Shown: positions 28,408 to 29,325 of the stretch, in pieces
Layout: the number at the start of each line of letters is the position of its first letter
How positions within the stretch are numbered: the stretch's first letter is position 1
Assembly: GCA_937140905.1 (NCBI GenBank)
Contig: CAKZQO010000208.1
Span: 1 to 34,724 of the forward strand
Length of the DNA stretch: 34,724 nt
Reading direction: 5' to 3'
DNA from: an uncultured Spirochaeta sp.
Lineage (GTDB): Bacteria > Spirochaetota > Spirochaetia > DTKZ01
The notes under the pieces: generated by a model
The model's input: the letters and a program-made list of their open reading frames with translations, nothing else
What the model was told of the DNA's origin: nothing
The model's database searches: none
Translations under genes and position numbers: made by a program

Positions 28408-29325
28408 TTAAACTTTGTAATACTGCTTGAGGTCTTCGAAGTTCAAAAGGTCCATATAGTCCCATTCCCGGTATGCCATTGCATATACACCGCAAGAGGT
28501 GCATTCCTTCACCAAGGGGTCCTCGAATCTTAGAGCAACAAAAATGGGTATGACCTTCTTGTTCGCGTGTTCCGGGAACAGGTTTCGAAACAATGGTATC
28601 TGCCGATTCAAGAATTCTTCTATGTATTCCTTTCTGGGACTTGCTTTTACTTCGAAGAAAAATACTCTATCTTCACAAATCGCCAGTGCGTCAAACTCAC
28701 CTGATAAAGGGCCCTTCTTTCTTCGAACCCGGATAGCTGTCTCGATAGGTTCCAGATCGAAATATCTCGCAAGTAAAGGATTGATGGCAGGATATACAAG
28801 ATCCTCCACAATGGTGCCCATTTTGTTAGACAACTCTCCCCACCGCTTATTCATCCGCCTGTTCTCTTCCTGCATCTCGTCCTTAAAGTCTAGCATCTCG
28901 TCTTTGAAGCCTTTCATCTCATCTTTAAAGTCTTTCATTTCATCCTTGAAGTCTTTCATCTCATCTTTGAAAATCTTCATCTCGTCTTTGAAAATCTTCA
29001 TCTCGTCTTTGAAGTCTTTCATCTCATCTTTGAAAACCTTCATCTCGTCTTTGAAAATCTTCATCTCGTCTTTGAAGTCTTTCATCTCATCCTTAAAAAC
29101 TTTCATCTCATCTTTAAAGTCCTTCATCTCATCTTTGAAAACCTTCATCTCATCCTTAAATGCCCTCATCTCGTCCTTAAATTCTTTCATTTCGTCTTTA
29201 AACTCTTTCATTTCCACCGTGAGCTGGTGGATCTGCATTTCATTCTTGTGCTGTAGGTAGACGAGTTCTCGAATGGCGTTTTCCAGTTCGTTCACCTTTT
29301 CCTCAATTGGCTGGCTTATGGCCAT
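28408..29325 (-). CDS. Coiled-coil protein with C-terminal PD-(D/E)XK nuclease-like domain (DUF3782-like)
   Basis: A 305-residue protein. Residues ~41-152 are sixteen near-identical heptads of the form FKDEMKx, a coiled coil with Met at a and Phe at d and an almost wholly charged surface. A linker (EENRRMNKRWGELSNKMGTIVEDLVYPAI) leads into a nuclease-fold domain with D212 in GEFDAL and E225/K227 in FFFEVKAS, the D...ExK pattern. This architecture matches DUF3782-type proteins scattered in cyanobacteria, Chloroflexi and thermophiles, whose function is not established. AAGGAGG precedes the ATG. It is the last gene on the strand after the transporter (71-base gap). Whether it cuts nucleic acid cannot be told from sequence. 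Confidence 0.88.
   Translation of the reverse strand: MAISQPIEEKVNELENAIRELVYLQHKNEMQIHQLTVEMKEFKDEMKEFKDEMRAFKDEMKVFKDEMKDFKDEMKVFKDEMKDFKDEMKIFKDEMKVFKDEMKDFKDEMKIFKDEMKIFKDEMKDFKDEMKDFKDEMKGFKDEMLDFKDEMQEENRRMNKRWGELSNKMGTIVEDLVYPAINPLLARYFDLEPIETAIRVRRKKGPLSGEFDALAICEDRVFFFEVKASPRKEYIEEFLNRQIPLFRNLFPEHANKKVIPIFVALRFEDPLVKECTSCGVYAMAYREWDYMDLLNFEDLKQYYKV
28868..29203 (-). repeat. Sixteen tandem 21-bp in-frame repeats
   Basis: Sixteen consecutive units encode FKDEM plus two variable residues (KD, KV, KI, KE, KG, RA, LD, QE). DNA units differ mainly at synonymous positions (GAC/GAT, GAG/GAA, AAA/AAG) and at the last codon, so they are diverged enough to be old but similar enough to recombine. 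Changes by whole units would keep frame and alter coiled-coil length. Confidence 0.95.

Follow-up and report, generated by a model that had tools for sequence, protein, structure and literature searches.

A predicted PD-(D/E)XK nuclease on a heptad-repeat stalk of labile length and conserved phase in an uncultured spirochaete

Results

Gene and locus

The stretch of DNA analysed here (the window, 34,724 nucleotides of an uncultured Spirochaeta sp.) carries on its reverse strand a gene for a 305-residue protein, preceded by a strong Shine-Dalgarno sequence, TAAGGAGG (Table 1). The gene lies 71 bp downstream of a CitMHS/ArsB-type permease gene on the same strand and 15 bp from a convergent glycogen phosphorylase gene. 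Both neighbours are kept around the gene at the same place in two congeners, G001 and G002; in a third, G003, the permease neighbour is kept and the contig stops within the nuclease gene. Compared with the nearest congener, the nuclease domain has a dN/dS of 0.033 and the flanking permease one of 0.031. Values of about 0.03 indicate strong purifying selection on the domain; with the kept site, they mark a resident, functional gene that is neither decaying nor newly arrived. The gene is vertically inherited at a fixed syntenic site in the four congeners, the window included. A 253-aa frame opposite the gene, at 28499-29260(+), mirrors the repeat and is not a gene; a 21-bp unit keeps the frame whichever strand is read, and so the mirror frame stays open.

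Table 1. Features of the coiled-coil and nuclease gene in the window
Feature	Coordinates	Strand	Basis
Whole gene, 305-aa coiled-coil / PD-(D/E)XK protein	28408..29325	-	ORF; synteny and purifying selection in congeners
N-terminal segment, aa 1-41	29203..29325	-	First heptad starts at aa 42 in each of the four congeners; phase analysis
Array of 16 x 21-bp units, heptads FKDEMKx, aa 42-153	28867..29202	-	Tandem Repeats Finder, unit list, register table
PD-(D/E)XK domain, aa 158-305, with stop codon	28408..28854	-	Alignment, AlphaFold2, Foldseek
GTIVED, aa 170-175, motif I	28801..28818	-	Helices of the full-length model, conservation
EFD...EVK, aa 210-227, motifs II and III, with D212, E225 and K227	28645..28698	-	Conservation, 40 relatives
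YREWDYMD, aa 285-292, C-terminal motif common to the closest subgroup	28450..28473	-	Alignment

A highly regular heptad array

Tandem Repeats Finder reported 16.1 copies of a 21-bp unit with a 63-bp higher-order period at 28873-29211. The preliminary description had read this region as sixteen FKDEMKx heptads with Met at a and Phe at d, and the array proved more regular than claimed: Met at a, Phe at d, Lys at e, Asp at f and Glu at g are each present in 16/16 units, and variation is confined to positions b and c. Charged residues make up 70 of the 112 in the array, and the hydrophobic periodicity of the coil peaks at 3.50 residues. Because the two-fold codons saturate Nei-Gojobori dS, codon columns were counted instead. 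Among the F, K, D and E codons, third positions vary in 4/4 columns and first and second positions in 0/8; this silent divergence argues that selection maintains the heptad at the protein level and that the array is not a fresh product of DNA slippage. Some blocks are nevertheless recent copies, units 7-9 and 10-12 being one base apart.

In the full-length AlphaFold2 model, an unbroken helix spans residues 7-169 and the next helix spans 171-189; pLDDT falls to 55-73 at residues 131-170, the junction of coil and domain, and the model, being of a monomer, cannot show oligomer state. Whole-protein Pfam and NCBIfam matches to ATG16, SMC and bZIP models, all below cut-off, were rejected as coiled-coil composition, as were PDB sequence matches to the coil. 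AAGGA motifs resembling Shine-Dalgarno sequences precede several in-frame ATGs of the coil at 28867-29202(-); they arise from the K-D-E-M codons and were not counted as signs of internal starts.

Fold and active site of the C-terminal domain

The domain had been proposed to adopt a PD-(D/E)XK nuclease fold, and its AlphaFold2 model (pLDDT 93.1, pTM 0.88) has the corresponding core, a central sheet with flanking helices. The top Foldseek matches in the PDB include VC1899, Cdn1, Card1, Can2, the nicking enzyme N.BspD6I, EndoMS, XisH and McrC, with modest E-values (best 8.5e-4). The catalytic set is present as D212 and E225xK227, located as first described (GEFD...FFEVK), together with E174 on the first helix. 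In an alignment of 40 relatives, G170, D175, P179, D212, K227 and N295 are invariant and E174 and E210 are at least 90% conserved; in a single relative, L018, serine replaces E225. Model and conservation together place the invariant G170 at the point where the coil helix gives way to helix A, which bears E174 and D175, so that the rod is predicted to run directly into the active-site helix.

No Pfam or NCBIfam model matched the nuclease domain above cut-off. Its weak profile matches were to Can2 and VC1899, and also to CARF_PDDEXK, Hjc and NERD models; Hjc was weakly matched by 9 of the 40 relatives. PADLOC gave nothing significant for the window domain (best CARF_PDDEXK, E 0.0021, 15 bits), and no CARF ligand-binding domain was found, the N-terminus being a single long helix in the model. 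Scans of the domain and the 40 relatives yielded no Rpn Pfam domain, and RmuC was not among their matches; the PF07788 and DUF3782 (PF12644) models had no match above the Pfam cut-off in the genome of the window (G000) or in G001-G003. Our literature search returned no biochemistry on this nuclease family.

Stalk length changes while heptad phase is kept

At the same site, the window has 16 heptads, G001 has 8, G002 has 10 and G003 has 14; the last three in G001 and one in G002 are degenerate. Change in rod length without loss of frame had been anticipated, and the repeat number does differ among the congeners by whole heptads. The segment before the array (residues 1-41) has the same length in all four, with the heptad register beginning at V11, and in each of them the spacing between the first heptad and MNKRW equals 4 modulo 7. 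Block duplications are species-specific: units 7-9/10-12 in the window, KV/LA pairs in G002 and KD/SA pairs in G003. The heptad counts rest on assemblies, since the sequences of the window and the congeners seem to come from metagenome bins; the longest exact repeat within any of the four genes is 62 bp, which short-read assembly should resolve.

In the 34 relatives whose N-terminal anchor could be identified, the coil measures between 39 and 148 residues; the window coil is among the two longest and has the most heptads of FKDEM type. Coil length is 0 mod 7 in 11 of them and 4 mod 7 in 19, which places 30/34 in two of the seven phases (P about 1e-11, allowing any two classes and counting relatives without correction for shared ancestry). 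A shift of 4 corresponds to a stutter, which is tolerable within a coiled coil. As judged from these sequences, the stalk appears labile in length but phase-locked, with the nuclease end kept.

Distribution, related stalks and neighbours

A GTDB scan recovered 48 related loci in groups that, according to record titles, include Spirochaetota, Desulfobacterota, Saprospiraceae, Thermotogae, Hydrogenobaculum, Caldilineaceae and Heimdallarchaeota. Presence is patchy, at 9/60 relatives searched. A spirochaete related at class level, G029, encodes about ten nuclease paralogues (L057, L061, L065, L069, L071, L073, L074, L075, L076). Five of these share 97-99% DNA identity in the nuclease domain and have coils of 74, 110, 113, 124 and 171 residues built from a different repeat, RESQAETSLQI; several of the G029 paralogues, almost alike in the nuclease domain, have coils ranging from 48 to 210 residues and built of 11- and 14-residue repeats. 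A further nuclease group, in G017 and G005, has QETDRRM heptads. Profile-profile comparison linked the window family to the QETDRRM group with 99% probability, to the G029 group with 97% and, less firmly, to six PF07788/DUF1626 members with 82%. These links indicate that one nuclease type carries several stalk sequences, and more than one of those stalks is labile in length.

Copies of the family can also lie side by side. In G017, L070 and L072 (contig C129) are tandem, almost identical copies with QETDRRM heptads, and neighbouring copies occur in G071, G078, G079 and G080. In G002 the nuclease also occurs as a second, diverged copy (L060, contig C130; 36% identity), likewise with an FKDEM-type coil. 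Neither a second nuclease copy nor a coil-only protein was found in G000, and the genus yielded no coil-only paralogue.

The preliminary description had suggested a role in defence, DNA end sensing or genome maintenance, and the genomic context lent this no support. Searches for phage, plasmid or viral homologues gave no matches, the 48 loci have no recurrent partner gene or operon apart from an AAA_14/DUF4143-like ATPase, and no repair gene is recurrently linked to them. At most 5 of 139 neighbours of the relatives match defence models (PDC-S01, mad3, mad8 and Cas10), a raw count taken without a random-gene baseline. The ATPase gene adjoins the nuclease gene at L011, L030, L044 and L049, in different organisms. 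An Rpn-like internal start that would yield a coil-free nuclease was also considered and gained no support: the Met codon opening the nuclease domain shows no Shine-Dalgarno enrichment (mean match 2.36, against 2.11 for other Met codons of the domain).

Discussion

The reading that we favour, with moderate confidence, is that the protein is a homo-oligomeric PD-(D/E)XK endonuclease assembled through its coil, with a stalk of labile, phase-locked length. Residues 7-169 would make up a single extended helix. Met(a)/Phe(d) layers and E(g)-K(e') salt bridges would join it to further copies of itself in a rod some 22 nm long, counted over the 147 residues between V11 and M158. At its C-terminal end, the rod would gather two or more nuclease domains, with a fixed joint at the invariant G170, and these domains (E174, D212, E225, K227) would cut nucleic acid. 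DNA is the likeliest substrate, and the active form is most likely a dimer or a larger oligomer. The stalk would lengthen and shorten through in-frame gain or loss of 21-, 42- or 63-bp blocks. Selection appears to hold the FKDEM core and the heptad phase and to leave length free, so the rod is probably no ruler of fixed size. Rpn offers a plausible analogy: pairing may be efficient only between chains of equal length, in which case the repeat number would decide which copies assemble; the lack of a partner chain in G000 counts against this, although G002 does have L060.

As to the cellular role, repair or processing and conflict or defence seem to us about equally likely. A housekeeping repair or recombination nuclease acting on junctions, flaps or mismatch ends from a tethering stalk, in a role like that of RmuC or NucS, is possible, if on balance unlikely. 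The fixed site and vertical inheritance in all four congeners, the strong purifying selection, the weak Hjc matches in 9/40 relatives and the fold match to EndoMS would suit it; its patchy presence (9/60) and the want of a recurrent link to repair genes would not. We give only slightly less credence to an Rpn-like anti-phage toxin whose nuclease is inactive in the oligomer and whose repeat number is driven by co-evolution with phage or antitoxin. Rpn shares this logic, being a PD-(D/E)XK nuclease in which a strain-variable repeat helix mediates oligomerisation (PMC10327210). The closeness of the fold to the CRISPR-ancillary Card1/Can2 group and the many, partly tandem paralogues in some genomes speak for a toxin, and patchy presence and stalk lability would fit a conflict role. 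However, the Rpn Pfam match and phage, plasmid and viral homologues are absent, no more than 5/139 neighbours match defence models, the Met opening the nuclease domain bears no start signal, and the gene is inherited vertically at a fixed syntenic site.

It is improbable that the domain is a non-catalytic version of the fold that binds nucleic acid or serves as a scaffold, with the rod as the functional part. The serine at the position of E225 in L018 would allow this, and crenarchaeal proteins have coil-only relatives (PMC4786415); against it, D212, K227 and E174 are conserved over a diverse set of 40 relatives. Least probable of all is a K/E-rich single alpha-helix acting as a passive spacer without oligomerisation, since strict M/F at a/d and phase conservation fit a packed coiled coil and single helices need no seam, even with 70/112 charged residues in the array.

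A bolder and rather doubtful proposal is that the stalk is a fast-changing assembly code across the nuclease group, in which only chains of the same length would assemble, whether in active or inactive form, and in which FKDEMKx, QETDRRM and FDQVDQR heptads and RESQAETSLQI hendecads arose or were replaced repeatedly. Were it true, copy number would be tuned and paralogues and sister lineages would be kept from cross-reacting. The observed steps in the stalk are whole heptads between sister species and large jumps between near-identical paralogues. The perfect M/F heptad also offers a natural, nearly ideal sequence for the study of coiled coils.

The architecture of a coiled coil followed by a PD-(D/E)XK domain is already known. 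DUF1626 was placed in the superfamily with a coiled-coil N-terminus in 2007 (PMC1913061), and an eLife paper of 2016 (PMC4786415) described bacterial members with coils lacking nonads, their stalks grouped by Pfam as DUF3782. The available portions of both papers give no function for such proteins, in agreement with the earlier view that the family's function is unsettled. An architecture on record since 2007 without a function attached, now seen to combine a conserved nuclease end bearing the full catalytic set of residues with a stalk that changes in heptad steps, becomes a testable case. DUF1626/PDDEXK_10 (PF07788, COG5493) with DUF3782 (PF12644) has the same described topology, an N-terminal coiled coil and then PD-(D/E)XK (PMC1913061, PMC4786415). 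However, motif III of DUF1626 often has T where the window family keeps K227, and its crenarchaeal members have nonads rather than heptads; the profile comparison suggests a sister-level link only. The Tcar0761-type coiled coils (PMC4786415) are a related class of long, repetitive stalk crystallised as trimers, but they contain nonads with beta-layers and no nuclease, whereas the window coil consists purely of heptads.

The nuclease domain of Card1/Can2/VC1899 (CRISPR-ancillary, DUF1887) provides the best fold matches and the best of the weak profile matches. Card1 and Can2 have a CARF domain, unlike the window protein, which carries a coiled coil in place of the ligand-sensing dimeriser. The nearest counterpart in mechanism is Rpn, in which the pairing of chains can depend on the repeat number of the oligomerisation helix: inhibition was lost when one 4-aa repeat was added and regained when the repeats matched (PMC10327210). 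Both are PD-(D/E)XK proteins in which the number of in-frame repeats varies within a helix for oligomerisation, a function that is putative for the window protein. They differ in that the Rpn repeats are of 4 aa, C-terminal and common to a small intragenic product, whereas those of the window protein are of 7 aa and N-terminal, with no internal start found; Rpn genes, moreover, move horizontally, whereas the window gene occupies a fixed chromosomal site. If stalk length sets assembly here as well, the protein would represent a second, independently built case of Rpn-type repeat-number specificity.
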